Assembly (NCBI RefSeq): GCF_009902005.1 | Contig: NZ_WUTT01000001.1 | Location: 1,012,012 to 1,076,011, forward strand | Source of the DNA: Halomonas alimentaria | GTDB taxonomy: Bacteria; Pseudomonadota; Gammaproteobacteria; Pseudomonadales; Halomonadaceae | Reading direction: 5' to 3' | DNA length: 64,000 bases | Part shown: piece by piece, positions 114 to 21,511 of the stretch | How positions within the stretch are numbered: position 1 is the first letter of the stretch | How the letters are laid out: each line of letters begins with the position of its first letter | Translations under genes and position numbers: made by a program | The notes under the pieces: generated by a model | Seen by the model: the letters and a program-made list of their open reading frames with translations, nothing else | What the model was told of the DNA's origin: nothing | The model's database searches: none

Positions 114-141
114 CGCGCGCGGCTGAGCTTTTGCGTTATGA
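83..141 (+). repeat. attC site of the upstream integron cassette
   Basis: The outer site GCCCAAC (83-89) faces the core GTTATGA (135-141). Between them are paired arms, GCTCCAGCCG against CGGCTGAGC, with one unpaired base, the usual asymmetry of attC hairpins. Recombination would fall between G135 and T136, which makes 136 the first base of the maa cassette. Orientation implies that attI and the integrase lie to the left of the window. Confidence 0.75.
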
Positions 142-168
142 GTAAATTGGTCTTGGAGTCCAAGTTTA

Positions 169-408: not shown

Positions 409-431
409 GGGTATCCGGAATATCTGGTTGA
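409..431 (+). repeat. left terminal inverted repeat of the transposon
   Basis: Reading inward it begins GGGTATCCGGAATATCTGG and continues TTGA. It matches the right end at 20 of 23 positions: the first 11 bases and the TGGTTGA block at 17-23 are identical. Confidence 0.92.
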
Positions 432-595
432 TTTCTGGTTATCGCAAAAAGGTCCCTACTCTCTGCCTCACCGGATTTCTCGGTTGATGGGTGCTTGGTT
501 TACTCAAGGGTTGCGTCCGGTGAACTACCCTCCGGTCGGGGCCATGGTGCAGATCGCCAGGCGCCGCCGAGAGGTGGCGTCACGGAGCCGTGCGG

Positions 596-1561
596 CTAGG
601 AGGGAGAGGGGTCTGGGATCAACTTGCCCGGCACCCAGCTCAGGTAGGCCACCATGCCGAACAGTTCGACCAGCGACTGGAAGACGATGACCACCACGGC
701 GGCTTGCCAGGCCTCGGGCAGCGCCAAGGCGATGGGCAGCACCACAAAGGAGTTGCGGGTGCCGAAGCTGAAGGTCAAGGTTCTGGCCGAACGCGTGGGG
801 AGCTGGAACAGTCTGCCGAGGGTCTTGCCCAGGAACGCGGCGAAGATCAAGTAGGCGACGAAGATCAACAGCACCTGCAGCAACACCCCGGTGAGGCCGG
901 CCACGGTCGTCACCTGCGATGCCGCGATGACGAAGACTACCAGTGCCAGTAGCGGCACGGGCAGCATGCCCAGGCCATGCACCCACCGCCTGGTATTGAG
1001 GCTGCGCTCGGCCAGGCGCTCGGTCATCCAGGCCAGGGCCAGAGGCGTGAGGATCAGCCCCGCAAAGGCGCCGAGCAGATGGGTGCTGATGGCGGTCTGA
1101 AGCCACTCCGCGCCCAGGAAGAGCCAGAGATAGACGGGCAGGGCCAGCAGCTGCGCGAGCAGGAGCACCGGTGTGGCGGCAATGGCTCGGCCGGCATCGC
1201 CTTTGCCGAGGTGGGTGAAGCTGATGAACCAGTCGGTACAGGGGACGAGCAGCACCAGCAGCACGCCGGCTTGCACGGCGACTGATACGGGCAGGAGGGT
1301 CATCAGCCCGCCTAGGACTAGGGGGATCACCACGAAGTTGCCGAGCAGCAGGGCCGCCAGGAAGCGCCAATCCTTGAGGCCCTGGCCGATTCGCGTCAGC
1401 GGCACCTGGGTAAAGGTGGCATAGAGCAGCCCGCCGAGCAGCGGCCAGAGAACGGCTTCAAGGCGTGAGGTCACGTCCGGCAGGCCCAGCCCGATGGCCA
1501 GGCCTGCCAGGATACCAATTAGATAGATCCAGGATTGCTGGCGTTCCAGCCAGTCGCGCAC
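596..1561 (-). CDS. Acr3-like arsenite / bile-acid-symporter-family efflux permease
   Basis: A 321-residue membrane protein with about ten hydrophobic segments, of the BART superfamily (arsenical resistance Acr3/SBF type). The fourth segment carries a cysteine (LVLLVPCTDWF), where Acr3 pumps have their functionally important Cys. It is the last gene of the leftward operon that starts near 4348, 15 bp after a rhodanese and downstream of an ArsR regulator. I infer extrusion of arsenite or a related oxyanion across the inner membrane, but substrate is not proven. It lies next to the left end of the transposon. Confidence 0.72.
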   Translation of the reverse strand: MRDWLERQQSWIYLIGILAGLAIGLGLPDVTSRLEAVLWPLLGGLLYATFTQVPLTRIGQGLKDWRFLAALLLGNFVVIPLVLGGLMTLLPVSVAVQAGVLLVLLVPCTDWFISFTHLGKGDAGRAIAATPVLLLAQLLALPVYLWLFLGAEWLQTAISTHLLGAFAGLILTPLALAWMTERLAERSLNTRRWVHGLGMLPVPLLALVVFVIAASQVTTVAGLTGVLLQVLLIFVAYLIFAAFLGKTLGRLFQLPTRSARTLTFSFGTRNSFVVLPIALALPEAWQAAVVVIVFQSLVELFGMVAYLSWVPGKLIPDPSPS

Positions 1562-1576
1562 GGGAGAGGATCCTTC

Positions 1577-1900
1577 TCAGTGTTCCAGTGTCAAGCCTTC
1601 GGCCAACCAGGCCTTCTTTCCACCCACATAGTGGTAGACCGCGGTGTAGCCGAGGCGGGCCAGTCGTTCGGCGGCACGGCCGGCCCGTTTGCAGTCTTCA
1701 CTGGTACAATACACGACGATGGTCGCTTGCCTGTCGGGTAGCCGGCGGGGCGCCTCGTCCAGGATGTCGTCGGAGACGATGTTGATGGCCCCCGGCAGGT
1801 GTCCCTTGGTGAAGGTCTCGGCCGGCAGGGTATCCACCAGGGTGAACTCCCGGTGTCGCCGCTGCCAGTCACGTAGGGTGGCGGTATCGATCGTTGTCAT
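1577..1900 (-). CDS. single-domain rhodanese-like sulfurtransferase
   Basis: A 107-residue cytoplasmic rhodanese domain with no signal peptide. The family landmarks are present: TLPAETFTKGHLPGAINI in the first half and the loop VVYCTSEDC with the presumed catalytic cysteine. The start at 1900 is chosen because the domain begins there (MTTIDTATL) and GGAGG lies just upstream; a longer frame to 2032 has no matching domain. Probably transfers persulfide sulfur to a thiol acceptor; within this arsenic/thiol operon it may supply or detoxify reactive sulfur. Confidence 0.8.
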   Translation of the reverse strand: MTTIDTATLRDWQRRHREFTLVDTLPAETFTKGHLPGAINIVSDDILDEAPRRLPDRQATIVVYCTSEDCKRAGRAAERLARLGYTAVYHYVGGKKAWLAEGLTLEH

Positions 1901-2013
1901 GGTACCTCCTGGCTTGGCGTGATGTTCCTCTTCCATCCTCGCCGAGGCTTTCCGGCCTCTCTTCCTGGTTTCCCGGTTGAACGCCGGCGCAAGGACTGTC
2001 CCGCAGGAATCCC

Positions 2014-2721
2014 CTACAGGCCCGTCACCCAAGCGGGAAGCATCTGCACCGCCCAGGTCTGCAGGACCTTGTCGACGCCGGTGAGCACGAGTCCTCCCAA
2101 CAGCAGTAGTGTCCAGCCCAGCAGGCGTTTACCGAGGTCCGCGCTCTTCATGGCCGTGGCATTCCAGCGGGCGATCGCCCGGCTCGACAACAGGCCGGCC
2201 GCCAGCAGGACCGCCGCCGTGCCCGCGCCGAACATCAGCATCACCAGAAAGGCGAGGCCCATCTGCTGGCCCATGGACGCCAGCCCGATCGCTGCGCCCA
2301 GGGTGGGGCCCACACAGGGAAGCCAGACGAGGCCCAGCAGCAGGCCCACGCCGAATTGGCCATACCAGCGCTCGGCGCTGGCGTCGAGATTCCACCGGGA
2401 CGTTACAAACGACAGCCCCGATGTCAGGCGGTTGGCCAGGGGCTTGATCACCAGCATGGCCCCGGCGGCCAGCAGGATGACGGCGGCGAGGTAACGGAAC
2501 GATTCCGGGTCCAGCCCCAGGTTGACCAGGAAAAACATCAGCACACTGCCGGCCACGGCGAAGGACAGGCTCAACCCACCGGCCAGGGCCAGGGGGCCGA
2601 AGCGACCGGTGGTGGTGGACGAGGCGATGACCACCGGTACCAGGGGCCAGACGCAGGGCGAGAGGATGCCCACCACCCCCGCCAGGAAGGCGAGGGGGAG
2701 CGCCGTCAGTTCAAGAGCCAT
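2014..2721 (-). CDS. CcdA/DsbD-type transmembrane thiol-electron carrier
   Basis: A 235-residue polytopic protein of the CcdA family, which moves reducing equivalents across the inner membrane to periplasmic thiols. Two conserved Cys-containing segments are seen: LSPCVWPLVPV near residue 20 and WLPCVGPTLG near residue 135. Its start overlaps the end of the upstream thioredoxin-like gene by 11 bp, so the two are likely translated together and form a redox relay. A second, different CcdA lies at 10892-11614 on the same transposon. Confidence 0.82.
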   Translation of the reverse strand: MALELTALPLAFLAGVVGILSPCVWPLVPVVIASSTTTGRFGPLALAGGLSLSFAVAGSVLMFFLVNLGLDPESFRYLAAVILLAAGAMLVIKPLANRLTSGLSFVTSRWNLDASAERWYGQFGVGLLLGLVWLPCVGPTLGAAIGLASMGQQMGLAFLVMLMFGAGTAAVLLAAGLLSSRAIARWNATAMKSADLGKRLLGWTLLLLGGLVLTGVDKVLQTWAVQMLPAWVTGL

Positions 2722-3187
2722 CGGTCACGGCATTGAGTTGGCTGAAAATCTTCTCCTTGCGAGTTTCCCCGACGGCGAACCAGACCTGCTCGGTGCCCGA
2801 GAACAGCACCAGCGTCGACTGATGTGGGGCCTTGAAATGGGTCACCCATTGCTTCTGGGTATCGTAGTCCACGTTCAGGATATGCAGCCCGGCGTCCGGG
2901 TACTGCTGCTGGTATTCGGTGAGAACCTGCTTTTGCCTCTGGCAGTTCGGACACCATGGCGCGCTGATGTGCACCAGCACACTTTCCCCCTGCTCCTGCA
3001 ACGTCTCGAACCGCTCCATGCTGAACGGCTCGGCGTCCAACGCCATCGCCGCCGGTGCCAATATCAGGGAAAACAGCAACACGACATATCCCGTCAGGGC
3101 CGAGAGTGGTTTGCGAATCACGAGTCTTTTTCCTCTTGCTATCACTTGGGCGGTAGCGACCGCCGACGTTCGTTCAGGATGTGTCAT
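2711..3187 (-). CDS. periplasmic thioredoxin-like protein
   Basis: A 158-residue protein with an N-terminal membrane/signal segment (VVLLFSLILAPAAMAL) followed by a thioredoxin fold. The active site is PWCPNC. The start at 3187 overlaps the preceding stop as ATGA. That supports this start over a longer open frame. It precedes a CcdA-type carrier and is expected to receive electrons from it in the periplasm. Its target is unknown; it may protect thiols oxidised or bound by metals or arsenic. Confidence 0.78.
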   Translation of the reverse strand: MTHPERTSAVATAQVIARGKRLVIRKPLSALTGYVVLLFSLILAPAAMALDAEPFSMERFETLQEQGESVLVHISAPWCPNCQRQKQVLTEYQQQYPDAGLHILNVDYDTQKQWVTHFKAPHQSTLVLFSGTEQVWFAVGETRKEKIFSQLNAVTDGS

Positions 3188-3633
3188 GACCCGCCGTGCC
3201 TGCCCAGATAACGGTCCAGCCCCCACAGCAGCAGGCCGAACAGCAGGTGCGGCAGGGCGGACGCCGGAATCAGTTGGGGACCGATAGCCAGGCCGGCGAG
3301 TCCCCAGCCCACCACGGGGAAGAACACCACCAGGATCACGACCCACAGCACGGCGGCCAGGCCCAGCGCGGTCGGCAGGGTCTTGCGCGGGAAATAGCGC
3401 ACGAACACCACCGACCAGAAGGTCACGTAGACCGTATGGAAGAGCAGGCCGATCGGCATCGGCAGGGGCCGTCCCAGCAAGGTCTCGGCGAAGGCCAGAG
3501 AAGGGGGCTTCGGGAAGGGGGATACGCCAGCCTTCAACAAGGCGACCATCACGATGGCGGTGAGCACCGACACCGCGATCCCGATGCCGATCGCCCTTGG
3601 CCAGGAGGGTTTGGTGGGGACTGTCTGGATCAT
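3184..3633 (-). CDS. small polytopic membrane protein, unknown function
   Basis: 149 residues with about four hydrophobic segments (for example IGIGIAVSVLTAIVMVALL near the N-terminus). The middle holds a conserved-looking stretch, PLPMPIGLLFHTVYVTFWSV. I do not recognise a named family. It lies between arsR and the thioredoxin gene, overlaps the latter by 4 bp, and so belongs to the leftward arsenic/thiol operon. A transport or scaffolding role there would only be inference. Confidence 0.65.
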   Translation of the reverse strand: MIQTVPTKPSWPRAIGIGIAVSVLTAIVMVALLKAGVSPFPKPPSLAFAETLLGRPLPMPIGLLFHTVYVTFWSVVFVRYFPRKTLPTALGLAAVLWVVILVVFFPVVGWGLAGLAIGPQLIPASALPHLLFGLLLWGLDRYLGRHGGS

Positions 3634-3687
3634 CTTGCGCTCCCTTTTGATGAACGGTGTGGATGGACCCTCAGGCGAGGCGGAGGG

Positions 3688-4041
3688 TCACCGGTCGCGA
3701 GACGTGGGGCAGCGGGGCCCGCAGCTTTCCTCGGCCTCGCTGCAGCAGGCACCGACCAGGTGGTCCGTCAACGCCAGCAGGGCATCGAACACCGCGCGGT
3801 AATAGACGAACTGGCCCTCGCGGTGCGATTCGACCAGGCCGGCGGCGGCCAGCTTCTGCAAGTGGAAGGTCAGCGCATTCGGCGCCACGTCGAGGCGCTC
3901 GGCGAGCCTGCCTGCCGCCAGGCCGGTGGGGCCCGCCGCCGCCAACTGGCGAATCGCCGCCAGGCGAACGGGATGGGCGAGGGCGGTCAGTTTTCTGGCG
4001 ACGATGTCGTCGCTGTTCTGGCGTCCGCAACCGTGTGCCAT
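3688..4041 (-). CDS. ArsR/SmtB-family metal-responsive repressor
   Basis: 117 residues with a winged helix typical of ArsR (LAHPVRLAAIRQL, then the recognition helix RLDVAPNALTFHLQKLAAAG). The C-terminal tail is cysteine-rich (ACCSEAEESCGPRC), a likely thiolate site for As(III) or a soft metal. The start at 4041 removes an unrelated N-terminal extension. It is the second gene of the leftward operon and probably represses it by binding the perfect palindrome at 4453-4480. Confidence 0.83.
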   Translation of the reverse strand: MAHGCGRQNSDDIVARKLTALAHPVRLAAIRQLAAAGPTGLAAGRLAERLDVAPNALTFHLQKLAAAGLVESHREGQFVYYRAVFDALLALTDHLVGACCSEAEESCGPRCPTSRDR

Positions 4042-4045
4042 GGAC

Positions 4046-4348
4046 TCATGCCCTCGGGTCGCGCTGCGCTTGGCCCGCATCGGCACAACCGCCGATCGGG
4101 CCGCAACCGCAGCTTCCGGCCCTTTTCGATGCGACGCGACGGCGCAGGTAGAGATAACCGCCGACCGCGCCAAGCGCGGCGATGCCGAGCCCGATCTGTC
4201 CCGCCAGCGCTAGGCCGACTCCACCGGCGGCGAAGAACGCGGCCAGGAAAGGGACGACCAGCGGGGCGCAGCAGACCGCGCAGGCCGTGAGCAGCACGCC
4301 GCCCGTCGCGACGGCCTTGCCGGAGGGGCTGGAGGATGTCTTGCTCAT
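4046..4348 (-). CDS. small MerT/MerF-like membrane protein
   Basis: 100 residues with two hydrophobic hairpins. The first contains a vicinal cysteine pair (TACAVCCAPLVVPFLAAF), and the C-terminus is Cys-rich (AGSCGCGPIGGC). This arrangement recalls MerT/MerF mercury carriers and the small membrane proteins often placed with arsR genes. It is the promoter-proximal gene of the leftward operon, 4 bp before arsR. Metal binding or uptake is plausible; the metal is not known. Confidence 0.6.
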   Translation of the reverse strand: MSKTSSSPSGKAVATGGVLLTACAVCCAPLVVPFLAAFFAAGGVGLALAGQIGLGIAALGAVGGYLYLRRRVASKRAGSCGCGPIGGCADAGQAQRDPRA

Positions 4349-4452
4349 GATGGGTTCCTCTCGGGTTCGGGCGCTAAGTGGATGAGCTCGATCGGCTGTC
4401 TGGCGACGATGTCGCCATCGTCCTGGGTCAATATTTCAATAATAAATGAACT

Positions 4453-4480
4453 CTATATTTCATGCAATAATGAAATATAG
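4453..4480 (-). promoter_or_regulatory. palindromic operator of the ArsR operon
   Basis: A perfect 10-bp inverted repeat, CTATATTTCA / TGAAATATAG with an 8-bp spacer, lies in an AT-rich patch 105 bp upstream of the first gene of the leftward operon. Size and symmetry fit an ArsR dimer site. The assignment to this ArsR is inference. Confidence 0.65.
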
Positions 4481-4529
4481 GCGTCACGCAACATGGTGTC
4501 GGCTTCAAATCCTTGACCAAGCTCTGAGC

Positions 4530-4917
4530 TCAGAGCTTGCCCCCTGCGGGTAGCTCAAGCCGGTTGTGGCCAGCGGAATACCAATGCCGTTGAACAGGAA
4601 CGCCGGCGAGACGTTCTCGGCGTAGGCGGGGTAACATCACCACCCGTACATCGGCATCCTGCCGCGCCCGGATCACGCCACCGGTGGTATTCTTCTCCTT
4701 GATGGGGTCGGCATGGCCAGCAGCTCCACCGAACGACCGCCCACGGCAGCGAAGATTACCATGGCGCCGTCGCCGCGCAGGCGCACGGCCTCGCTTTGTT
4801 CGGCTGCCCCTCCACATGCTCGCGTTCCATCAACAAGCGGTTGCTGAGCGGAGCGGGCCGTCTGCCCCCTGACCCACCACGCCCTTGCCATTGAGGGAGT
4901 CGAATGCCGACGTCCCG
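4530..4917 (-). pseudogene. decayed copper P-type ATPase (CopA-like) remnant
   Basis: Read leftward, broken frames give pieces of a P1B ATPase in correct order: GKGVVGQGADG and NRLLMEREHV (nucleotide-binding domain), RLRGDGAMVIFAAVGGRSVE, then DPIKEKNTTGGVIRA and VRVVM (hinge). A jump then leads to PAFLFNGIGIPLATTGLSYP, resembling the last membrane pair. The pieces need several frame changes, and the DNA between hinge and membrane pair is missing. No functional protein can be made. It implies that the transposon once carried a copper exporter at this spot. Confidence 0.62.
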
Positions 4918-4923
4918 GACAGG

Positions 4924-6363
4924 TCAGTTACTCACCGGGCGTAAGGCAACGAAGTAGGAACGGCCCTCGCGGTTGATGAGCACTGGGACGACTTGCTCTT
5001 GGGGTAAGTTGGCGGCCATATCGGCCAGTTGCTCCGCACTCTCCACCGACTGCTGGCCGATGCTCATCAGCACATCCCCTGGCCGGATCCCGGCCGCTGC
5101 CGCGCTGCCGGCGGGATCGACGCTGACGATACGCACGCCCTGCTTGATACCCAGCTGGCGACGCTCAAGCTCGCTCAGAGACTGCACTGTAATACCCAGT
5201 CGCACCGGACCGCCGTCGCTATCACCCTGGTTAGCAACCACATCCGGCCACTCCCCGACTGTCAGGGTGATGGGCTGCTTTTCACCATCGCGCAGCACCG
5301 AGAGTTCGACTTCCTCACCGGGCGTCACTTCGCCCACAAGTCGGGGAAGCGTGGTGGAATGATCCACCTCCTCGCCATTCACCTTCAGGATAACGTCTCC
5401 TGCTTGGAGACCACCCTTGGCTGCCGGTCCGCGAGGGTCCAGATCTGCGATCAAGGCTCCTTCCGCCTGTTCCATGCCGAAGGATTCCGCCAGGTCCTTG
5501 GAGACCGGCTGGATCCTGACACCCAGCCAGCCACGGTTCACGAAGCCGTCATCACGCAGTTGGTCGGCCACATCCATGGCCACATCGATCGGGATGGCAA
5601 ACGAAAGGCCCATATAACCGCCGCTACGGGTCAGGATCTGGGAGTTGATACCCACGACCTCACCGTCCAGGTTGAACAGCGGACCGCCTGAGTTACCCGG
5701 GTTTATGGCCACGTCGGTCTGGATGAAGGGCACATAAACATCCTGGGGCAGGGTACGGTTGATGGCGCTGATGATGCCCGCGGTCACGGAATGGTCGAAG
5801 CCGAAGGGCGAGCCGATGGCGGCGACCCACTGTCCGACCTTGAGGTCGGAGGACTCGCCCAGCTCCAGGGTGGGCAGGTTGTCCGCCTCGACCTTGAGCA
5901 CCGCCACGTCGGTCTTCTCGTCGGCACCAACCAGCTCGGCCTCGAGTTCACGGCGGTCGTTGAGGCGCACCAGGATCTCGTCGGCATCCTTGACCACATG
6001 GGCGTTGGTCATGATGTAGCCGTCTTCATCGAAGATGAAGCCCGATCCCAGTGACTGACGTGGCTCCTCATTGCGATTGGGCGCCCCGCCGGGTGGCATC
6101 GGGATGCGGTCGCCGAAGAACTCTCGAAAGATCTCCGGCACCTCCTGCCCCCCAAACTGCCGAGAGGACGTCATGGACCTCTCGACCTCCCGTGAGGTGG
6201 AGATGTTGACGACGGCCGGCGCGGCCTTGTCGACCAGCTCCGTGAAGTCTGGCAGTCGTGGCTCGGCGAGGGCTGGCGTCGCCAGCATCAAGAGTAAAGC
6301 TAGGCTCATCAGCCAAGTGTGCGAGTGAGGCTTGGGTATCACAATGAGTTCCTTCCGGGGCAT
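4924..6363 (-). CDS. DegP/MucD-type periplasmic serine protease
   Basis: 479 residues: a signal sequence (LALLLMLATPALA, cleavage near residue 33), a trypsin-like domain and two C-terminal PDZ domains. The catalytic triad is visible as His122 (TNAHVV), Asp152 (TDVAVL) and Ser225 (NPGNSGGP). Such Do-family proteases degrade or hold misfolded envelope proteins. It reads leftward and diverges from the CDF pump at 6517, sharing a 150-bp spacer. Chromosomes normally have their own copy, so a transposon-borne one suggests extra protection of the envelope under metal stress. Confidence 0.9.
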   Translation of the reverse strand: MPRKELIVIPKPHSHTWLMSLALLLMLATPALAEPRLPDFTELVDKAAPAVVNISTSREVERSMTSSRQFGGQEVPEIFREFFGDRIPMPPGGAPNRNEEPRQSLGSGFIFDEDGYIMTNAHVVKDADEILVRLNDRRELEAELVGADEKTDVAVLKVEADNLPTLELGESSDLKVGQWVAAIGSPFGFDHSVTAGIISAINRTLPQDVYVPFIQTDVAINPGNSGGPLFNLDGEVVGINSQILTRSGGYMGLSFAIPIDVAMDVADQLRDDGFVNRGWLGVRIQPVSKDLAESFGMEQAEGALIADLDPRGPAAKGGLQAGDVILKVNGEEVDHSTTLPRLVGEVTPGEEVELSVLRDGEKQPITLTVGEWPDVVANQGDSDGGPVRLGITVQSLSELERRQLGIKQGVRIVSVDPAGSAAAAGIRPGDVLMSIGQQSVESAEQLADMAANLPQEQVVPVLINREGRSYFVALRPVSN

Positions 6364-6451
6364 GAGACATGGTAACCATGTCTGGTACAGCGCCCACTAT
6401 GCAAAGTTCCACCACGCCTAGCCCTAGCTCGGCCTTCATTATAATTCGAGC

Positions 6452-6482
6452 TTGAACCTTGAGTTGGTATAGGTTTTATACT
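6452..6482 (+). promoter_or_regulatory. MerR-type promoter of the CDF pump gene
   Basis: TTGAAC and TATACT are separated by 19 bp, the over-long spacing that MerR activators correct. The spacer contains the imperfect dyad ACCTTGAGTTGGTATAGGT. It lies 35 bp before the CDF start. The MerR protein at 10378-10857 is the only candidate activator within the element. Confidence 0.75.
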
Positions 6483-6516
6483 GTCGCGTCATCAGGTGAC
6501 ACCACAAGGACGACGC

Positions 6517-7431
6517 ATGGGACATCATCACGATCATCCCCATCTTGACCCCACCTCTGGTGACCGTCGGGTGAGCATCGCCATCTGGGCCAACGGGATA
6601 TTGACCGTTGCTCAGATTGTTGGGGGTATCCTGGCGGGAAGCCTCTCGCTGATCGCGGATGCGCTGCATAATTTTTCCGACATGGCGGCGCTCGTCATTG
6701 CCTTTGCGGCCCGCAAGATAGCAAGACGACCGCCAGACTCACAGATGACGTTTGGCTATGGACGAATCGAGATTGTGGCGGCGCTGATCAACTACACCAC
6801 GCTCATTCTCGTCGGCGTCTACCTGATTTACGAAGGCGCCATGCGCATGATCGACCCGCCAGCGGTTCAGGGCTGGATCATCGTTGTCATCGGTGCCGTC
6901 GCCTTAGCAGTCGACGCGCTCACGGCCTTGCTTACCTGGTCGATGCAAAAGCATAGCGTCAATATTCGGGCCCTGTTTCTGCACAACCTATCTGATGCGC
7001 TTGCGTCCCTCGCCGTGATCATTGGGGGCTCGCTGATTCTGCTATACGACATGCGCTGGGTAGACCCCGCGATTACGATCGGCATTGCGCTCTATATTCT
7101 TTATCTCGCCTTTACGGAGATTGGTGGCCCTATCCGGACACTGATGTTGGGATCGCCACCCGATATCGACGGCCAATCAGTCATTGATGCGCTGCGTGAC
7201 GTCGAGGGTGTCCAGGATGTACATCATGTCCACCTATGGCAAATGCAGGAAAGCACTGCCGCGCTTGACTGTCACGTGGTGCTCACGGAAGCCGGCTGGC
7301 AGCAGCTTGAGGCGATCAAGGCGGATATCAAGGCTCAGCTAAAAGCGCGCTTTGACATTGGCCACTCCAGCTTGGAATTCGAGCATATTGATCATGCGCA
7401 TCAGAGAGCCAATCTTTATGGGCATGGATGA
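6517..7431 (+). CDS. cation diffusion facilitator (CzcD/ZitB-like Zn2+/Cd2+ efflux)
   Basis: 304 residues with a His-rich N-terminus (MGHHHDHPH), six membrane segments and a cytoplasmic C-terminal domain. The paired metal sites of CDF antiporters are present in segments 2 and 5 (ALHNFSD and LHNLSDA). It would export zinc or similar divalent metals in exchange for protons. The start at 6517 puts the His-rich tail first; an alternative ATG lies 7 codons upstream. ISPpu12-type ISL3 elements are known to carry a czcD-like gene, and this is the equivalent. Confidence 0.88.
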   Translation: MGHHHDHPHLDPTSGDRRVSIAIWANGILTVAQIVGGILAGSLSLIADALHNFSDMAALVIAFAARKIARRPPDSQMTFGYGRIEIVAALINYTTLILVGVYLIYEGAMRMIDPPAVQGWIIVVIGAVALAVDALTALLTWSMQKHSVNIRALFLHNLSDALASLAVIIGGSLILLYDMRWVDPAITIGIALYILYLAFTEIGGPIRTLMLGSPPDIDGQSVIDALRDVEGVQDVHHVHLWQMQESTAALDCHVVLTEAGWQQLEAIKADIKAQLKARFDIGHSSLEFEHIDHAHQRANLYGHG

Positions 7432-7532
7432 CACGTCACTATTCGCCGACTTAGGCACCCAACAGCGGTTGAGATCTACTCAGCAGCTCTCTGGTCTTGC
7501 TTTCCGCTTAACCACTTGAATTGGAGAAGTCA

Positions 7533-9466: not shown

Positions 9467-9573
9467 GCCGCCAGGCTGGCTTGTTGTATGAGACGCAGCG
9501 GTGGCCATGTAATGGCTATCGTCGTGTGACTCAACATTCCCTGCAGTACCAACCCTCCAAAGGGGAAGGGTCT

Positions 9574-10356: not shown

Positions 10357-10377
10357 CTTGCCGACCCTTCCAGGCGC

Positions 10378-10857: not shown

Positions 10858-10891
10858 GGTGGCATCTCCGTAAAAACGATCAGCGTCTGAA

Positions 10892-11614: not shown

Positions 11615-11659
11615 CGTGCCCTCCCAAAGAACAGCCCTTCAGGCTGTAACCGATGGAGC

Positions 11660-11690
11660 TTGAAGCTGTAGTTGCTACAGGGTTTATGCT
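11660..11690 (+). promoter_or_regulatory. MerR-type promoter of the P-type ATPase gene
   Basis: TTGAAG and TATGCT are 19 bp apart, and the spacer holds the dyad CTGTAGTTGCTACAG. This matches the overlong-spacer promoters turned on by CadR/PbrR/ZntR proteins. It lies 33 bp before the ATPase start. Confidence 0.82.
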
Positions 11691-11723
11691 GTCGAATAAT
11701 ACATCATCCCACGGAGTCACACC

Positions 11724-13919: not shown

Positions 13920-14419
13920 GAACGAAACGGATAGCGATGGCGCCGCAGAGTCGGTACTGGTTGGCACTGGCGGGCCTGGTCGGCCTGGCCGACCAGGCCA
14001 TCAAGGGGCTGGTACAGGCGCTGATGCCGTATGGCCAGGCCAACCCGCTGACCCCATTCTTCAACTGGGGCCACTGGTGGAACACGGGGGCAGCCTTCAG
14101 CTTCCTCGCCGATTCAGGTGGCTGGCAGCGCTACCTCTTCCTCTGCCTGACAGGAATAGCGGCTATCGTGCTGACGTTCCTGTTGTGCAGGCCCAGGCCC
14201 CGCCTGGAGGCGCTGGGGTACAGCTTGATGCTGGGTGGCGCGCTGGGTAATGGCATCGACCGCCTGGCGCGAGGGTATGTGGTGGACTACCTGGACATCT
14301 ACTGGCGAGAGTGGCACTGGCCCGCCTTCAACCTGGCGGATATCGCCCTGTTCCTGGGTGTCATTACCTTTGCGATGGCGGCCTTGCATGAACGTCCCTC
14401 CCCCAGGTTGTCCGAGTGA
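13916..14419 (+). CDS. lspA: lipoprotein signal peptidase (LspA)
   Basis: 167 residues with four membrane segments. Both aspartic-protease motifs are present (GNGIDRLARGYVVDYL and FNLADIALFLG). It removes signal peptides from prolipoproteins in the inner membrane. The start at 13916 overlaps the ATPase stop; an internal ATG at 13937 is also possible. lspA genes next to metal ATPases are a recognised trait of ISPpu12-type elements and pbr operons. Confidence 0.9.
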   Translation: MRTKRIAMAPQSRYWLALAGLVGLADQAIKGLVQALMPYGQANPLTPFFNWGHWWNTGAAFSFLADSGGWQRYLFLCLTGIAAIVLTFLLCRPRPRLEALGYSLMLGGALGNGIDRLARGYVVDYLDIYWREWHWPAFNLADIALFLGVITFAMAALHERPSPRLSE

Positions 14420-14423
14420 CGGC

Positions 14424-15956
14424 ATGGATGCACAGAACCCGCCAGTCCGGGACATGACGCTTTTCGGACGGCTCTCTCCGGTCCTCGGCTGTTTGCTGGC
14501 CCTGACCGCCGGAGGGTTGACCACCCTTAGTGCCGCGCCCTTCACGCTGTGGTGGCTGGGCCCGGTGGCGGTGGCCCTGGTCTATGTCGGCATCCATGCC
14601 CTGACACCCGCTCAAGCCGCCCTCCGCGGTTGGTGCTATGGCGTGGGCCTGTTCGGCTCCGGTACCTCCTGGGTCTTCGTCGCGATCCACGACTATGGCG
14701 ATACGGGGGCGCTCCTGGCGCTCTTCCTCACCGGTCTGTTCGTGGCCAGCCTGGCGCTGTTCTATGCCGTGCCCTTCTGGCTCTATCGCCGCGTCACGGG
14801 CCCACGCCTGGCCTTCCTCAGCTTCGCCGGCGCCTGGGTACTCAGCGAGTGGCTGCGCACCTGGCTGTTTACCGGGTTTCCCTGGCTGCTGCTGGGCACC
14901 TCTCAGGTGGACTCGCCGCTGGCGGCCTGGGCCCCGGTAGGCGGCGTCTATCTCCTGTCGCTGATCACCGCCCTGACCGGCACCCTGGGCGTGGAGCTCC
15001 TGCGCCGCCGCTGGTGGGCCGCGGCGCCCATCGCCGCTCTCTGGCTGACTCCCCTGGCCCTGCCGGCCCAGTGGACCTTCCCGGCCGGCGAGCCGCTGGG
15101 AGTCGCCCTGCTGCAGGGCAACCTGGACCAGTCGATCAAGTGGACGCCCGAGGGCCAGCGTGAGGCGGCCAACATCTACACGGTGTTGACCCTTGCCCAG
15201 TCCAACGACCTCGACCTGATTGTCTGGCCCGAGGCGGCCTTGCCGATGTTCGAGGAGAACGCGCGGCCCATACTGGAGCGGGTGCAGTCCAAACTGTCGC
15301 CCGACACCGCCCTGCTCACAGGCATCCTGCAGCGCGACGGCGGCAACAACTACAACGGCGTGATCGGCCTGGGTAACGCCGAGGGCCATTATCGTAAGGT
15401 GCGTCTGGTGCCTTTCGGCGAGTACCTGCCGCTGAAGCGCCTGCTCGCCGGCACTATCGCCTTCTTCGACCTGCCCATGCCGACCATGACCCCCGGGGCC
15501 GCGGCTCAGGGGCCGATCCACGCCGCCGGAACCACCATCGGTAACGCCATCTGCTACGAGATTATCTATGCCGACCGGGTCGCCGAGCAGGCGCGCGATG
15601 CCGAGCTACTGTTGACGGTCTCCAACGACACCTGGTTCGGCCGCTCCATCGGCCCCCTGCAGCATCTGCAGATGGCCCGCCTGCGTGCGCTGGAGAATGG
15701 CCGATACCTGATCCGCGCCACCAGCAACGGCGTGACCGCCATCGTCGATCCTCAGGGCCGTGTCACGGCCCGCGCACCACAGTTCCAGGCGACGAGCCTT
15801 CGCGGCGAGGTACTGCCCATGCAGGGCCTCACCCCCTTCACCCGAACCGGTAGCTGGCCCGCTTGGCTGTTGGCCGCACTGCTGACTCTACTTGGGTGGA
15901 AACGCAACCTACATCGGTCGATTGACAACACACCCGGCGAAAAAGGAAGAGCGTAA
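14424..15956 (+). CDS. lnt: apolipoprotein N-acyltransferase (Lnt)
   Basis: 510 residues: an N-terminal block of membrane segments followed by a periplasmic nitrilase domain. The catalytic Glu-Lys-Cys set is visible: IVWPEAALP, YRKVRLVPFGEYLP and NAICYEIIY. It adds the third acyl chain to lipoproteins. It starts 5 bp after lspA. It ends with TAATG, shared with the next gene. A transposon carrying both LspA and Lnt is uncommon. Confidence 0.9.
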   Translation: MDAQNPPVRDMTLFGRLSPVLGCLLALTAGGLTTLSAAPFTLWWLGPVAVALVYVGIHALTPAQAALRGWCYGVGLFGSGTSWVFVAIHDYGDTGALLALFLTGLFVASLALFYAVPFWLYRRVTGPRLAFLSFAGAWVLSEWLRTWLFTGFPWLLLGTSQVDSPLAAWAPVGGVYLLSLITALTGTLGVELLRRRWWAAAPIAALWLTPLALPAQWTFPAGEPLGVALLQGNLDQSIKWTPEGQREAANIYTVLTLAQSNDLDLIVWPEAALPMFEENARPILERVQSKLSPDTALLTGILQRDGGNNYNGVIGLGNAEGHYRKVRLVPFGEYLPLKRLLAGTIAFFDLPMPTMTPGAAAQGPIHAAGTTIGNAICYEIIYADRVAEQARDAELLLTVSNDTWFGRSIGPLQHLQMARLRALENGRYLIRATSNGVTAIVDPQGRVTARAPQFQATSLRGEVLPMQGLTPFTRTGSWPAWLLAALLTLLGWKRNLHRSIDNTPGEKGRA

Positions 15957-17023
15957 TGGCCTTGTCGACATTTCATTCAGGTGCTCTGGAGAAACCACTG
16001 TTGGGGCAACGTCGAACCAGCATACTGATCGCTGTGATGGCCGGTTGGCTCGCGCTCATCGGCGTTGCTCAGGCCCAGGAGGAGAACAAGTGGCCCCGCG
16101 GTCACTATCCGCTGCCTGAAGAAGGCAATGTGATCGGCGACACCTACCGCATAACGGTGGAGGATCGAGAAGATACCCTGCTCGATATCGCCAGGCGACA
16201 CAACCTGGGGTACAGGGAGATCGTGCGCGCCAACCCGGACGTGAGCATCTGGATTCCCGGCGAGGGTACCGAGGTGACCATACCCGGGCGCTTCATCCTG
16301 CCCGCCACAGAGCGCACTGGCATCGTCATCAACATCGCCGAGCTGCGCCTTTATTACTATCCCGAGGTGGATGACGACGAGACATCACGTGTCGAGACCT
16401 ATCCTATCGGCATCGGTCGCGAGGGCTTCGATACTCCCCTCGGTGTGACCAAGACCACCATGAACATTAAGAACCCCGCCTGGTACCCACCCGAGTCGGT
16501 TCAGCGCGAAGCCAGGGCACGCGGTGAAGAGGCGCCCAGCGTGGTGCCACCAGGCCCGGACAATCCGCTGGGAGACCATGCCATTATCCTGGGTTTCGAT
16601 GGCTACTTGATCCATGGGACCAACCAGCCGGATGGTATCGGCATGCGTGCCAGTCGTGGCTGTATTCGCATGTTCCCTGGGGACATCGAGTCGATCTTCG
16701 ACCGCGTGCCCGCCGGCACCCAGGTCCGAATCGTCAACCAGCCCATCAAGATCGGCTGGCATGAAGGGCAACCGCTGGTTCAGGCATTCCCGCCTCTGGA
16801 GGGGGAGGGGCACAGCATGTCCACGTTGGTAGAGACCGTCACACGCCTCAACCAGCGCAAGGCCGAGGGCTGGAGCTTCGATTATGAACAGCTTCGTGGC
16901 CTGTTGGATGACCCCAGCGGTCGCATGGTAGCCCTGAATCCCAAGCCGGAGCCGGAGCCAGATAAAACACCTGACCCTGACTACCAGGGTATCTACGCAG
17001 AAATTGCGCTGCGCAGGCCATGA
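15956..17023 (+). CDS. L,D-transpeptidase (YkuD family)
   Basis: 355 residues. A signal segment (WLALIGVAQAQ) is followed by a LysM-like stretch (DTLLDIARRHNLGYREI) and a YkuD domain. The catalytic motif is HGTNQPDGIGMRASRGCIRM, with the nucleophilic cysteine. Such enzymes link Braun-type lipoproteins to peptidoglycan or form 3-3 cross-links. It directly follows lspA and lnt and overlaps lnt by one base; the three genes may act together on lipoprotein attachment. Confidence 0.88.
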   Translation: MALSTFHSGALEKPLLGQRRTSILIAVMAGWLALIGVAQAQEENKWPRGHYPLPEEGNVIGDTYRITVEDREDTLLDIARRHNLGYREIVRANPDVSIWIPGEGTEVTIPGRFILPATERTGIVINIAELRLYYYPEVDDDETSRVETYPIGIGREGFDTPLGVTKTTMNIKNPAWYPPESVQREARARGEEAPSVVPPGPDNPLGDHAIILGFDGYLIHGTNQPDGIGMRASRGCIRMFPGDIESIFDRVPAGTQVRIVNQPIKIGWHEGQPLVQAFPPLEGEGHSMSTLVETVTRLNQRKAEGWSFDYEQLRGLLDDPSGRMVALNPKPEPEPDKTPDPDYQGIYAEIALRRP

Positions 17024-17297
17024 CGACGACAACATGGCGGGTCCTGTCAGTCTCGTGATGTTGACTTCAGGCGTGGCTGATACAGGACCTATCGCCCTGT
17101 GCAGGGTCACTGGCGGCGCGTTGGCGGTATACCCAACTACTGAACTGGTGCCGTGCCTTGGGGCGCGGCCTTCCTCGCCTCCCAGGCACCGAGGTGCGGG
17201 CTCTGGCTTCATCTGCGTTTATAGTCCCACCTTGCCGCATGCCACGTTGGGCTCCTAGTCTCACCGTTGGCATGCCGATTCTGGGGAGGGAAGGGCT

Positions 17298-18152
17298 ATC
17301 GACCTCGACGTTGCTCTGGGCTACCTGCTGCCGTGGGAGTTCTCGCTGGCCTGGTCGGGGGCCTGCCTGCTGGCCATCGCGCTCTACCTGCGTGGCCTTC
17401 GGCAGCGCCGACGGCGAGGCGAGGCCACCGGCGCAGGCCGAGTCCTTGCCTACCTGCTGGGTGTCGCCACCATCTATGGCGTCACCCAGACCCATTACGA
17501 CTACCTCGCCCAGTACATGTTCTTTACCCACCGGGCACAGCATCTGGTATTGCATCACGCCGGTCCCTTCCTGATTGCCCTGGCCGCCCCCCTGCCGGTA
17601 CTGACAGACGGCTTGCCGACCCGAATCAGGCACTTTTCAGGATGGAGGCCGGTCGCGCGCCTGCTGCGCCCCGTATACCGGACGCTTCAGCATCCACTGA
17701 TCGCTCCCGTACTGTTCGTCGGGCTGATCTATTTCTGGTTGATTCCCGAGGTCCACTTCGATGCGATGCTGAGTACCGACCTGTATCAAGTGATGAACTG
17801 GAGCATGGCGCTGGATGGGTTGCTGTTCTGGTGGTTGATCCTGGATCGCCGCACGCCGCAGCAGGGCGGCCTCGGTTACGGCAAACGCATCGCCATCCTG
17901 CTGGTGGTGATTCCGCCGCAGATCGTGCTGGGGGCCTATATCGTCTTTAGCAAAAATGTCATTTTCGATGTCTATGAGGTGTGCGGGCGCGCCTGGCCGC
18001 TGGACCCTCTGACTGACCAGCTCCTCGGTGGCCTGTTGACTTGGGTACCGGCCACGATGATGAGTGCCATCGGGGTTCTGATCATTCTCAGCTTTCTGTT
18101 CCGTGATGCCCGCAAGGAGGATGCCGCTGATGTCTCTCACGCCACACCCTAG
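17298..18152 (+). CDS. CtaG-family cytochrome c oxidase assembly membrane protein (unusual ATC start)
   Basis: The frame encodes about 284 residues with six to seven membrane segments. Conserved pieces include LLPWEFSLAWSG, YDYLAQYMFFTHRAQHLVLH and LLGGLLTWVPATMMS. This is the caa3-CtaG type thought to help copper delivery to oxidase. The coding frame continues upstream of the first ATG (17517) as far as an in-frame TAG at 17256, with no ATG, GTG or TTG. GGGGAGGG sits just before ATC at 17298, where a start is expected (next codons Asp-Leu-Asp-Val). Starting at 17517 would remove two membrane segments. PCu(A)C and SCO genes follow. Confidence 0.7.
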   Translation: MDLDVALGYLLPWEFSLAWSGACLLAIALYLRGLRQRRRRGEATGAGRVLAYLLGVATIYGVTQTHYDYLAQYMFFTHRAQHLVLHHAGPFLIALAAPLPVLTDGLPTRIRHFSGWRPVARLLRPVYRTLQHPLIAPVLFVGLIYFWLIPEVHFDAMLSTDLYQVMNWSMALDGLLFWWLILDRRTPQQGGLGYGKRIAILLVVIPPQIVLGAYIVFSKNVIFDVYEVCGRAWPLDPLTDQLLGGLLTWVPATMMSAIGVLIILSFLFRDARKEDAADVSHATP

Positions 18153-18594
18153 TCTGCCGCGACTAGCGAAACCCTGGTGCTCGACCTTCCTGCTGCTGAT
18201 CGCGACGTCCGGCACGCTGGCGGCTGCCGAACTGGAGGTCAGCGAGGCGCGTCTTAGGCTCCTGCCCGGGGACCTGCCCGCGGCAGGCTACTTCACCCTC
18301 ATCAATACCAGCGAAAAGGGCGTCACCCTGACAGGAGCGGATAGTCCCGCTTTCGGTAATGTCATGATGCACCGCAGTGTCAATCAGGATGGCGTCACCC
18401 GCATGGAGCCCGTTGCCCAGCTGGAGCTGGCGGCGGGGGAACAGGTCGAATTTGCTCCGGGTGGCTATCATCTCATGCTCATGAAGCGGGCTCGCCCCCT
18501 CGTCGTAGGTGACGACGTCGAGGTGAATCTTCATTTCGCCGGCAATCAGCGACAGCGTGTCACGTTCCGCGCCGTGGCGCCGACAGCACAGTAG
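18130..18594 (+). CDS. PCu(A)C-type periplasmic copper chaperone
   Basis: 154 residues: a signal peptide (STFLLLIATSGTLAAAE) and a copper-binding cupredoxin-like domain. The His/Met copper ligands appear as VMMHRSVNQDGVTRM and GGYHLMLM. The start at 18130 has AAGGAGG at 9 bp; it overlaps the end of CtaG. PCu(A)C passes Cu(I) to the oxidase CuA site, often together with SCO, which is the next gene. A second family member is on the chromosome at 54530-55045. Confidence 0.85.
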   Translation: MSLTPHPSLPRLAKPWCSTFLLLIATSGTLAAAELEVSEARLRLLPGDLPAAGYFTLINTSEKGVTLTGADSPAFGNVMMHRSVNQDGVTRMEPVAQLELAAGEQVEFAPGGYHLMLMKRARPLVVGDDVEVNLHFAGNQRQRVTFRAVAPTAQ

Positions 18595-18604
18595 GGGGAG
18601 CAGG

Positions 18605-19183
18605 ATGCGCCGATGTATCATGGCACTATTCGTGACGCTATGGATTGCGGGCTGCAGCGATCCAGACTGGCAGACCAAGGATATCTCGGGGCTGATGCCA
18701 TCCCTGGCGTTCGAACTCATCGACGAGAACGGGAATACGGTGAGCGCCGATCAGTTCCTCGGCAAGACGACGCTGCTGTTCTTCGGCTTCACCCATTGCC
18801 CCGATGTCTGCCCCACTACCCTGGCGCGCCTCGACGCTGCCACCCAGCGCATGGATGAAGCGGCTCGCGATGACATCCAGGTGCTTTTCGTCTCGGTGGA
18901 CCCCCGCCGCGATAACGCCGAGACGCTGGATAGCTACACCGCCGCCTTCGGCCCCCAGTTCATCGGCCTCACTGGGGATAAAGCGGCACTCGATAAGCTG
19001 ACACGCCGCTATCGGGTGACCTACGGGTATGGTGAAGAAGACAGCGAAGGCAGCTATGATGTGTCGCACTCCAGCGCTGTCTTCGCCTTCAATGCCCAGG
19101 GAGAAGTACGCCTGCTGATCCGGGACAGCGACCCCATGGATGCCGTGGTTGCCGACCTCGAAAGGCTTGCCAGCGGTGCCTGA
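18605..19183 (+). CDS. SCO1/SenC-family copper chaperone lipoprotein
   Basis: 192 residues. The N-terminus is a lipoprotein signal (LWIAGC). The thioredoxin-like domain has THCPDVCPTT and a distant conserved His (SYDVSHSSAVF), the Cu ligands of SCO proteins. It helps load the CuA centre of cytochrome c oxidase. It is the last intact gene of the CtaG-PCu(A)C-SCO set, 10 bp after its neighbour. Its lipidation would use LspA/Lnt-type enzymes. Confidence 0.88.
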   Translation: MRRCIMALFVTLWIAGCSDPDWQTKDISGLMPSLAFELIDENGNTVSADQFLGKTTLLFFGFTHCPDVCPTTLARLDAATQRMDEAARDDIQVLFVSVDPRRDNAETLDSYTAAFGPQFIGLTGDKAALDKLTRRYRVTYGYGEEDSEGSYDVSHSSAVFAFNAQGEVRLLIRDSDPMDAVVADLERLASGA

Positions 19184-19340
19184 GTTGTCACCGTCCAGTG
19201 CCCTATCTTCCGTCGAGAACCAGTACGGTTCAGGGGGAGAAAGGCTGTCGAGGAGGCTTGCCTAGGAGTACGGCGCAGGGTTCGTCGTAGCGCCTTGAGG
19301 CAGCCGAAAACCACGTTCGATCACATTTCACTCTTGGAAA

Positions 19341-19795
19341 TTGGGTCTGTCGACCCTGGGGTTAACCTGGGCCGCCGGCGCCTCGCTGGTCATGTCCCTC
19401 ACCGGACGCCTGCTCAAACAGTCGTGCCAGCCAGAGGACCGTCCGGCGCTGTTCGCCGCGCAGTTCTCGCTTTCGCATGGCTGGTGGCCTATCCGTTGGC
19501 CGGCTGAGTCGGGGCCGAGGTGGGCCTGATCGAGACCTTCGCCCTGCTGGGGGCGATTGCGCTGGTGTCGACGGCGCTCGCGATCCGTGTCTGGCCGTCA
19601 GGGAACCCTATGGCGCTCGAGCATGATCATGCTCCTATGGAGCACACCCATCTGCACTATCATGACGACCACCATCAGCATGAGCATGAGGGCTGGGAGG
19701 GGCCGGAACCGCATCGCCATCCCCACCATCACCCAAGGGGCAGGCATCGGCACATCTTTATGATCGATGGCCATCACACGAGATCGCCGTCGTGA
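19341..19795 (+). pseudogene. MFS transporter remnant with His-rich tail
   Basis: Only the last part of a membrane transporter remains. GLSTLGLTWAAGASLVMSL is read in one frame; the sequence then shifts to another (LAFAWLVAYPLAG), meets a TGA at 19506-19508 and continues as GLIETFALLGAIALVSTALA. The hydrophilic end is strongly His-rich (HTHLHYHDDHHQHEHEG), suggesting metal handling. No start and the first several segments are absent. From about 19184 to 19340 I see nothing further. It stands next to the transposase. Confidence 0.68.
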
Positions 19796-19824
19796 CATGA
19801 CAAAGAGGCACAAGGAACGTTTGC

Positions 19825-21126
19825 ATGACCATTCTGCCTGACAACATCCTCCATTTACCGGAATACCGCATCCTGGGTACAAAGATGGAAGAGCATGATC
19901 TCCACTTTCAGGTCGAAGCTCCGGTCCCTGTGGCCTGCAAGGAGTGCGGCGTAGAGGGAGAGTTCGTCAGGTTTGGCAAGCGCGATGTGGCTTACCGAGA
20001 TCTGCCCATCCACGGCAAGCGAGTCACCCTATGGGTGGTACGACGCCGCTACACTTGCCGAGCCTGCGGAAAGACATTCCGCCCACCACTCCCCGAGATG
20101 GTTGACACTCATCGCATGACGCGGAGGCTTTACAGCCATGTCGAGAAGGAAGCCTTCAACCATCCCTACGCTTATGTGGCCGATACCACGGGCCTGGACG
20201 AGAAGACTATTCGAGAGATCTTCAAGAAGAAGGCTGAGTTCCTGGCGACCTGGCACCGTTTCGAGACACCCCGTTGCCTGGGCATCGACGAGCTGTACCT
20301 GAACCGCCGCTACCGTTGCATCCTGACCAACCTTGAGGAGCGTACCCTGCTGGACCTGTTGCCCGGTCGTCAGCAGGACTCCGTGACCAGACGCCTCATG
20401 AACATGACCGACCGCAACAAGGTCGAGATCGTCAGCATGGACATGTGGAAGCCCTACCGCCGTGCCGTCCAGGCGGTGCTGCCACAGGCCCGCATCGTGG
20501 TCGATAAGTTCCATGTTGTGCGTATGGCCAACGAAGCCTTGGAGAAGGTCCGCAAGGGGCTCAGAAAGGAGCTGACGGCCAACCAGCGACGGACGCTCAA
20601 GGGTGATCGGAAGATCCTGCTGAAGCGGGCTCACGATGTCTCAGACCGCGAACGGCTCATCATGGAGACTTGGACGGGGGCCTTCCCTCAGCTCCTGGCA
20701 GCCTACGAGCATAAGGAGCGGTTCTACCACATCTGGGACTGTGCCACCCGGCGAGATGCTGAGAAGGCACTAGCTGCCTGGATTGACGACATCCCGCAGG
20801 GGCAGAAGGAAGTCTGGAAGGATCTTGTCAGCGCCGTCAGCGAATGGCGTGAGGAGATGCTGACCTACTTCGAGACTGACATCCCGGTCACCAACGCCTT
20901 CACGGAGTCGATCAACCGGCTGGCCAAGGACAAGAACCGCGATGGCCGGGGCTACTCATTCGAGGTGATGCGGGCCCGGATGCTCTATACCACCAAGCAC
21001 AAGAAGAAGGCGCCGCAGACCAAGGAGTCCCCGTTCCTAGGCAAGGCTACCATGACCTACGGCAGGGGTCTCCCCGAGCCCGAGAAGAACTTCGGCGTCG
21101 ATCTATCAACCTTCTGGGAAGATTAA
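19825..21126 (+). CDS. tnpA: ISL3-family transposase
   Basis: 433 residues. The N-terminus has the ISL3 zinc finger (CKECG ... CRACGKTF), followed by a helix-turn-helix region and a DDE catalytic domain. Blocks include [46 protein letters not shown] and [14 protein letters not shown]. The full family length is kept and no frame damage is seen. It ends 48 bp inside the right inverted repeat and presumably mobilises the whole 20.8-kb element. Confidence 0.94.
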
Positions 21127-21151
21127 GGTTTTGGTGGATCAGAAGGGATCG

Positions 21152-21174
21152 TCAACCACTTAATCCGGATACCC
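21152..21174 (-). repeat. right terminal inverted repeat of the transposon
   Basis: Read inward on the minus strand it begins GGGTATCCGGATTAAGTGG and then TTGA, matching the left end at 20 of 23 positions. Confidence 0.92.
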
Positions 21175-21182
21175 ATAATTTC
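21175..21182 (+). repeat. right copy of 8-bp target-site duplication
   Basis: ATAATTTC, identical to 401-408. Its last two codons (Asn-Phe) duplicate the end of the 5' maa piece. Confidence 0.93.
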
Positions 21183-21506: not shown

Positions 21507-21511
21507 TTTAC

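Follow-up and report, generated by a model that had tools for sequence, protein, structure and literature searches.

Elements of the ISL3 family are usually catalogued as insertion sequences (ISs) of a few kilobases. Among those described, ISPpu12 and ISPpu12a measure 3372 bp (PMC4133298; PMC4447125), and ISPpu12a has been said to resemble a non-composite transposon (PMC4133298). ISPst2 is 2,985 bp long and carries a permease and an ArsR gene (PMC6305408, Table 3), in DEH, two copies of ISPpu12 form a composite element (PMC12060670), and transporter ISs are recognized as a class of their own (PMC9330008). Here we analysed a 64,000-nucleotide stretch of the Halomonas alimentaria genome (assembly GCF_009902005.1, contig NZ_WUTT01000001.1, positions 1,012,012 to 1,076,011, forward strand), hereafter the window. 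Its bases 409-21174 (20,766 bp; ~20.8 kb), bounded by ISL3-type ends, very probably constitute one complete ISL3 unit transposon that interrupts a sugar O-acetyltransferase gene; the single transposase, predicted to act on both terminal repeats, likely carried all 21 passengers in as one block. G000 denotes the host genome, and other G- and L-numbers denote the genomes and loci compared.

Like ISPpu12, the window unit places its transposase beside the right end and has an inverted repeat of similar sequence, 8-bp duplications (in the loci compared) and passenger genes of the LspA and CDF kinds with a MerR-type regulator. Unlike ISPpu12, which has two passengers and the regulator tnpR, it holds 21 passengers, is six times longer, has another gene order and has no MerR gene adjoining the transposase. 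The initial annotation had presented the cargo as the ISPpu12 core set with additions. This did not hold, as the transposase is 77% identical and LspA 53% identical to those of ISPpu12-like loci, and the principal cargo is a metal module of Halomonas in its own right. The element was also rejected as an ISPpu12 isoform on its transposase identity and its position in a separate clade of the transposase tree (100/100 support), isoforms being defined by a transposase >98% similar and/or a whole IS >95% identical (PMC4133298). The left repeat of ISPst2, GGGTATCCGGAATTTCTGGTTGAT, differs at one position in 24, and that element also shows 8-bp duplications and ArsR-family cargo; unlike the window unit, it has two passenger genes only.

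The 5.1-kb mercury ISL3 units (L014, L015, L016, L018, L023, L024, L025, L027, L028, L030 and L031; also THAF12 and Paracoccus albus plasmids) have transposases 91-92% identical to that of the window, similar ends and, in 11 loci, exact 8-bp duplications. Their cargo is annotated as merR-T-P-F-F-A and has only a distant MerR in common with the window unit. On the suggestion of the initial annotation that a cargo this large is undescribed, the ISL3 literature searched, which took in few subscription papers and not ISfinder and so does not prove absence, held no unit near 20 kb. A relative of 25,227 bp in G110 is larger than the window unit.

Ends and target site of the element

The terminal inverted repeats, IRL GGGTATCCGGAATATCTGGTTGA (409-431, plus strand) and IRR GGGTATCCGGATTAAGTGGTTGA (21174-21152, minus strand), are identical at 20 of 23 positions, and an exact 8-bp target duplication, ATAATTTC, adjoins both. 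The repeats, the duplication and the one ISL3 transposase near the right end were all found where the initial annotation had placed them. The features that define the unit are the following.

169-408, plus: interrupted sugar O-acetyltransferase, 5' part (domain match, joined flanks)
401-408, unstranded: target-site duplication, left copy ATAATTTC
409-431, plus: left terminal inverted repeat (IRL)
471-489, plus: subterminal second repeat of the left end, CCGGATTTCTCGGTTGATG (alignment of 9 left ends)
19825-21126, plus: ISL3-family transposase, intact, 433 aa (NF033550, PF01610)
21152-21174, minus: right terminal inverted repeat (IRR)
21175-21182, unstranded: target-site duplication, right copy ATAATTTC
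21183-21506, plus: interrupted sugar O-acetyltransferase, 3' part (domain match, joined flanks)

Removing the element and one duplicate in silico gave one open frame of 187 aa across the joined flanks. Scanned apart, the left piece of this frame matched the maltose-acetyltransferase Mac domain and the right piece matched hexapeptide repeats, which identifies the interrupted target as an O-acetyltransferase gene of the sugar-acetyltransferase type. With up to three mismatches, the repeat pattern had exactly two matches in the 3,285,121-base genome, both of them the element ends, and the reversed pattern had none under the same settings. No inner ISL3 end was found inside the window, where a search allowing up to five mismatches returned only the two outer ends.

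The two ends differ: in the left one, the inner part of the repeat occurs a second time ~62-80 bp inside. The CGGAT core of this subterminal repeat is invariant in all nine left ends aligned, and the remainder diverges most in G037. The IRR starts 25 bp past the transposase stop codon. The G+C content is 62.9% in the element, 43% (408 bp) and 46% (2 kb) in the immediate flanks, and 66.7% in the rest of the window.

By eye only, the flanks (window 1-168 and 21500-21600) resemble integron gene cassettes with attC-like stretches. The sole integrase above the integron cut-off in the host genome lies at G000:C1:3171240-3172169, ~2.1 Mb away along the contig. An Rfam scan of the window at gathering scores found nothing.

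A second copy at an unrelated site

A transposase search of 97 genomes gave eight that match at E 1e-150 or better, the host's own genome included. One of them, G004, belongs to a second species of the genus and encodes a 100% identical transposase. Its unit is also a single-transposase build, measures 20,786 bp, aligns end to end with the window unit at 96.1% identity and is bounded on both sides by a different duplication, GAAATAGA. The window flanks (408 and 2,826 bp) have no match in the 40 kb around the G004 unit. Joining the flanks there yields an open frame of 749 aa, which the insertion ends after seven codons; by eye, this frame encodes a subtilisin-type peptidase.

The two sites are unrelated, and each has its own duplication and a frame that closes, which shows that the ends delimit what moved as a block. 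The initial annotation had proposed looking for the same cargo between the same ends elsewhere and for empty sites. The G004 copy supplies the first, and the two closed target frames stand in for the second. With paired ends, a duplication, an intact transposase, a closing frame and the G004 copy, the window unit is a genuine ISL3 unit, complete, as had been claimed, and of unusual size within a kind already known. Among the compared loci, the whole ars/DegP junction occurs only in the window and G004, so both copies descend from one assembled unit. Measured in 500-bp steps, their identity is 98-100% over 409-10408, 82-96% over 10409-18408 and 100% from 18409 to the end, a profile that suggests that the middle segment was likely exchanged by recombination in one of the two copies.

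The unit could instead be a dead passenger that arrived once, the copies in two species reflecting transfer of a larger plasmid or island rather than unit transposition. Each of the two genomes has one pair of ends, and the unit contains two internal remnants, as such a history would predict. The two sites speak against it, having unrelated flanks and duplications that differ, as do the intact transposase and the 100% identity of both end regions, and we consider it improbable.

Class of the element

The transposase passes the ISL3 equivalog NF033550 (303.6 against a cut-off of 180 bits) and covers PF01610 over its full length (1-240 of 240). The element has the transposase of the ISL3 family, closely matched terminal repeats, and an 8-bp duplication that differs by site. 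As in a non-composite unit transposon, there is one transposase, the cargo lies inside one pair of ends, and the whole unit occurs at two unrelated sites.

A composite origin, in which two ISL3 copies moved the intervening DNA and the left-hand one has since decayed to its end, has a precedent in DEH (PMC12060670), and the left end does keep ~80 bp common to the left ends of other elements. No right inverted repeat of a left-hand copy was found in the window, where only the two outer ends were detected; the left terminus is of the left-end type and points inward; and a protein search of the host's own genome gave a single close ISL3 transposase and no transposase piece near the left end. We therefore regard a decayed left copy as very improbable, and a present-day composite such as DEH was rejected since no second IS copy flanks the cargo and there are no inner ends.

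Members of the Tn3 family combine TnpA with ~38-bp ends and a 5-bp duplication. Assignment to that family was rejected on the 23-bp ends, the 8-bp duplication and the lack of a Tn3 transposase among the open reading frames (ORFs) scanned.

Mosaic build and origin of the cargo

The unit consists of three blocks: an ars/thiol block (409-4539), a metal block from DegP to SCO (4945 to ~19345) and a right end with a major facilitator superfamily (MFS) remnant, the transposase and the IRR. Window 409-4539 recurs at 93% in an 11-kb unit of G041 with the duplication CTTTTTTT, and window 4945-19347 recurs at 97.6% DNA identity in the G110 unit. G110, G055 and L026 also contain the beginning of the right block, and the SCO/MFS break lies at ~19345-19367. 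The G110 unit has the same end type, a duplication (CCGAAGAC) and a related MFS-transposase block. It differs from the window unit in its block order, in a transposase interrupted by another IS, in an inner right end and in HupE cargo.

Of 90 genus genomes, with at most three candidates scored per genome, 15 have the core of P-type ATPase (P-ATPase), LspA, Lnt and L,D-transpeptidase at nearly its full length. DNA identity is at least 88% in 14 of the 15 and 71% in G001. Duplication-bounded ISL3 units enclose the core in three of the 15 (the window, G004 and G110), and the other 12 have no enclosing matched ISL3 ends in the DNA examined, which means that the module also has other means of spreading. 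Seven of the 12 (G121, G011, G007, G055, G116, G033 and G001) have one or more ISL3 ends in the DNA examined, and the remaining five (G049, G119, G111, G008 and G035) have none. The count of 12 is a bound, as G008, G035, G121, G011, G111 and G049 are short contigs or partial stretches where farther ends are possible. The initial annotation had named, as signs against a unit, cargo that is chromosomal in close relatives without the ends and repeats that belong to a short IS. The former has its counterpart in the core of these 12 genomes, and the latter was not borne out.

These cores also bear on the possibility that the window holds a Halomonas metal island of the ordinary kind, chromosomal or plasmid-borne, with separate short ISL3 elements inserted on both sides. 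In addition to the 12 genomes, two Halomonas plasmids fit such an island: their gene order is similar, and the stretches examined contain no enclosing ends. The identical 8-bp duplication at the outer ends and the closing target frame do not fit it, G004 contradicts it with the same outer ends and another duplication, and the genome has one close transposase and no inner end; independent flanking insertions are thus extremely improbable.

Under the preferred reading of a single unit transposon, ISL3 ends would have come to flank a pre-existing Halomonas metal module, thereby assembling the unit, and segments would later have been swapped between copies through homologous recombination. At the DNA level, the lnt of the element shares 81% identity with that of the host itself (G000:C1:1507799-1509217). 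Part of the cargo therefore probably stems from Halomonas, and the match suggests capture from a Halomonas chromosome. Circle-route (copy-out/paste-in) transposition occurs in ISL3 relatives, and the unit may have moved by this route. The gene order of the window looks circularly permuted relative to that of G035 (there SCO then SBF, here SBF outermost), which would hint at a circular step.

Roseobacter plasmids carry looser versions of the gene set. On a Halomonas HAL1 plasmid (L004:12700-12778), an ISL3 left end with one mismatch abuts the SBF gene of a related module from outside. When the complete element was compared by megablast with 72,556 plasmid records and 20,395 records of E. coli, no place covered 80% of it, and most of the matches listed were to the transposase at ~80%. 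A search with the M23 protein in 390 order genomes (E 1e-120, at most four candidates scored per genome) matched only the host genome and says little.

Cargo genes and predicted function

Pfam and NCBIfam scans assigned a family to 19 of the 21 passenger frames; two membrane proteins (3184-3633 and 4046-4348) had no family in these scans. Scores above NCBIfam cut-offs were obtained for the ISL3 transposase, DegP, CDF, P1B-ATPase, LspA, Lnt and the ArsR/SmtB regulator. Where two bit scores are given below, the second is the cut-off; otherwise the assignment comes from the family scan.

596-1561, minus: SBF/BART-superfamily transporter, weakly ACR3-like (31.9 vs 282.8 bits)
1577-2032, minus: Rhodanese-domain protein
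2014-2721, minus: CcdA/DsbD-like transmembrane protein
2711-3346, minus: thioredoxin-fold protein, true start probably nearer 3200
3184-3633, minus: membrane protein, no family
3688-4173, minus: ArsR/SmtB-family metalloregulator (NF033788, 61 vs 55 bits)
4046-4348, minus: small membrane protein with a Cys-Cys-Ala-Pro stretch, MerF-like by eye only, no family
4540-4923, minus: likely relic of a copper-type P-type ATPase at the junction of the first and second blocks (weak match, best E 5e-4)
4924-6363, minus: DegP/HtrA (Do family) periplasmic protease (510.7 vs 416.2 bits)
6452-6482, plus: MerR-type promoter, 19-bp spacer, before the CDF gene (alignment)
6496-7431, plus: CDF (CzcD/ZitB-like) cation efflux transporter
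7521-8210, plus: DsbA-like thioredoxin-fold protein
8207-9466, plus: M23 peptidase, peptidoglycan endopeptidase type
9481-10356, plus: ZIP family metal transporter
10378-10908, minus: MerR-family metal regulator, ZntR/CueR/CadR-like, below every equivalog cut-off
10892-11614, minus: CcdA/DsbD transmembrane protein
11660-11690, plus: MerR-type promoter, 19-bp spacer, before the P-type ATPase gene (scan, alignment)
11724-13919, plus: P1B-type ATPase, closest to ZntA/CadA (TIGR01512, 521.9 vs 313.5; TIGR01511, 410.1 vs 397 bits)
13781-14419, plus: LspA, lipoprotein signal peptidase, true start probably ~13926 (TIGR00077, 117.8 vs 73.95 bits)
14235-15956, plus: Lnt, apolipoprotein N-acyltransferase, true start probably ~14489 (TIGR00546, 306.7 vs 132.9 bits)
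15956-17023, plus: L,D-transpeptidase
17517-18152, plus: CtaG-like cytochrome oxidase assembly protein, start codon uncertain
18103-18594, plus: PCu(A)C copper chaperone
18557-19183, plus: SCO1/SenC copper chaperone
19341-19795, plus: MFS transporter remnant with a His-rich tail, intact (457 aa) in G110

The two internal remnants are thus the likely copper-ATPase relic at the block junction and the MFS remnant that adjoins the transposase. From ~17277 on, the frame of CtaG is open, yet the stretch 17277-17517 has no in-frame ATG, GTG or TTG. The arsenic function proposed in the initial annotation proved to be a weak label on an SBF-superfamily protein.

Judged from its families, most of the cargo is predicted to serve metal handling and upkeep of the cell envelope. 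Both the CDF gene and the P-ATPase gene are preceded by a MerR-type promoter with a 19-bp spacer, and the pattern TTGAA-CT--AGTTG-TA-A-G-TTTA is invariant in seven promoter sequences (window, G110 and two Halomonas plasmids); the promoter assignment comes from this alignment, the consensus scan alone being not significant. Promoters of this type, and a P-ATPase with a lipoprotein signal peptidase in one operon, are known from cad/pbr systems (PMC1526738, PMC3431237). The window unit resembles the pbr operon of Cupriavidus metallidurans in its promoter type, its P1B-ATPase and its PbrC-like lipoprotein signal peptidase. Unlike pbr, it has no PbrB phosphatase (C55-PP), PbrT or PbrD families among the cargo ORFs scanned, and it adds CDF, M23, Lnt, L,D-transpeptidase and oxidase chaperones. 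One MerR-type regulator would switch on the CDF pump and the P-type ATPase together, and the spare LspA, Lnt and DegP, the disulfide and peptidoglycan enzymes and the copper chaperones would keep the envelope and the respiratory oxidase working under Zn, Cd, Pb or Cu stress. The unit is a clear case of spare genes for lipoprotein processing and peptidoglycan (LspA, Lnt, L,D-transpeptidase) that travel with metal pumps, and the link between lipoprotein processing and metal pumps is also seen in ISPpu12 and pbr operons.

Several points weigh against a metal-resistance unit that moved as a block. We infer its movement, and a 100% identical transposase in two species may also reflect recent plasmid spread; the 12 cores without enclosing ends belong here as well. 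Metal function is assigned by family only: the ACR3 label falls below its cut-off, the MerR regulator stays below all equivalog cut-offs, and the P-ATPase exceeds the Cd-family cut-off by far and, narrowly, the Cu-family cut-off as well. In the promoter dyad analysis, a threshold of 6 was passed only by the P-ATPase site and 7 was reached by none, against 2 of 20 shuffles. Finally, the czcD of ISPpu12a itself conferred no resistance in the strains tested (PMC4447125).

Size range and cargo of related units

An ISL3 end with at most one mismatch is carried by 62 of the 275 genomes surveyed from the host's taxonomic family, and the reversed control gave none. Adjacent end pairs within 40 kb were inward in 37 cases and outward in two; on this ratio, the two genome matches only and the zero control, chance repeats were rejected. 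The inward pairs have a median span of 5,142 bp, and the three largest span 25,227, 20,786 and 20,766 bp; duplications were checked only in part of these pairs. Two of three further 7.4-kb pairs examined had no matching duplication (L163, L165).

The loci compared gave 70 end pairs (rows) with a duplication at no more than one mismatch, a set in which L012 and G121 are the same locus counted twice, many rows come from Pseudomonas bharatica and the G041 pair is not included. ISPpu12-like units of 3.37 kb make up 34 of these rows and 5.1-kb mercury units 11. Ends of this type enclose 0.6 to 25 kb, and in relatives the cargo includes mercury, chromate, arsenic-type, amino-acid or sulfate genes. 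Chromate transporters are carried in L037, G097 and G041; an SBF pump with an FMN reductase, GAPDH and MFS in L012; a sulfate permease in G038; asparaginases, a racemase-fold enzyme and a GntP permease in G037; LysE and DHDPS in L013; and an aldo-keto reductase and MFS in L029.

Elements of a kind described mainly as ISs a few kilobases long probably transport entire gene islands as well. With 21 genes on one pair of ends, the same unit at two sites and a range of 0.6-25 kb, such a metal-resistance platform may be missed by annotation that marks only the transposase.

Likely growth by use of outer ends

In five rows (G110, L011, L006, L017 and L022), the matching duplications lie outside an inner end. 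One such case is a compound unit made of the mercury unit and a CcdA-CadR-Lnt-LspA extension (L006:10299-25660, L161:1832-14409, L160:2020-16885 and L162:2221-14832). Its outer duplications are AAAATAAT in THAF12, ATTTTTTT in G482, and GGAAATCC in G527 and G532, G527 and L017 being one record. The inner junction reads GTTAAGGC throughout, and the inner end lacks a matching partner. As the outer duplications vary around a constant inner junction, the transposase likely used the outer end past the inner one, and the compound unit likely moved as a 12.6-15.4-kb block. There is perhaps an even chance that GGGTATCCGG-type ISL3 ends act more generally as an open-ended cargo platform of halophilic bacteria, in which an inner right end is skipped, a neighbouring outer end is used and a short IS repeatedly becomes a 12-25-kb mosaic collecting metal, envelope and metabolic modules, in the role of the Tn3 family.

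At the other end of the size range, G018:C60:56526-57107 (L117, 582 bp) and G021:C87:4639-5569 (L118, 931 bp) look like non-autonomous members similar to miniature inverted-repeat transposable elements, with the same end type, exact 8-bp duplications and no transposase match. Two cargoes enclosed by ISL3 ends are odd: the amino-acid set of asparaginases, racemase-fold enzyme and GntP permease (L113:4100-11715) and a PheS-like tRNA-synthetase-core protein (L019:8698-9819). Close transposase matches in L034 (Scrofimicrobium, Actinomycetota, a 3.6-kb contig) and L021 (a Dehalococcoidia metagenome-assembled genome, a 7-kb contig) reflect either transfer or contamination.

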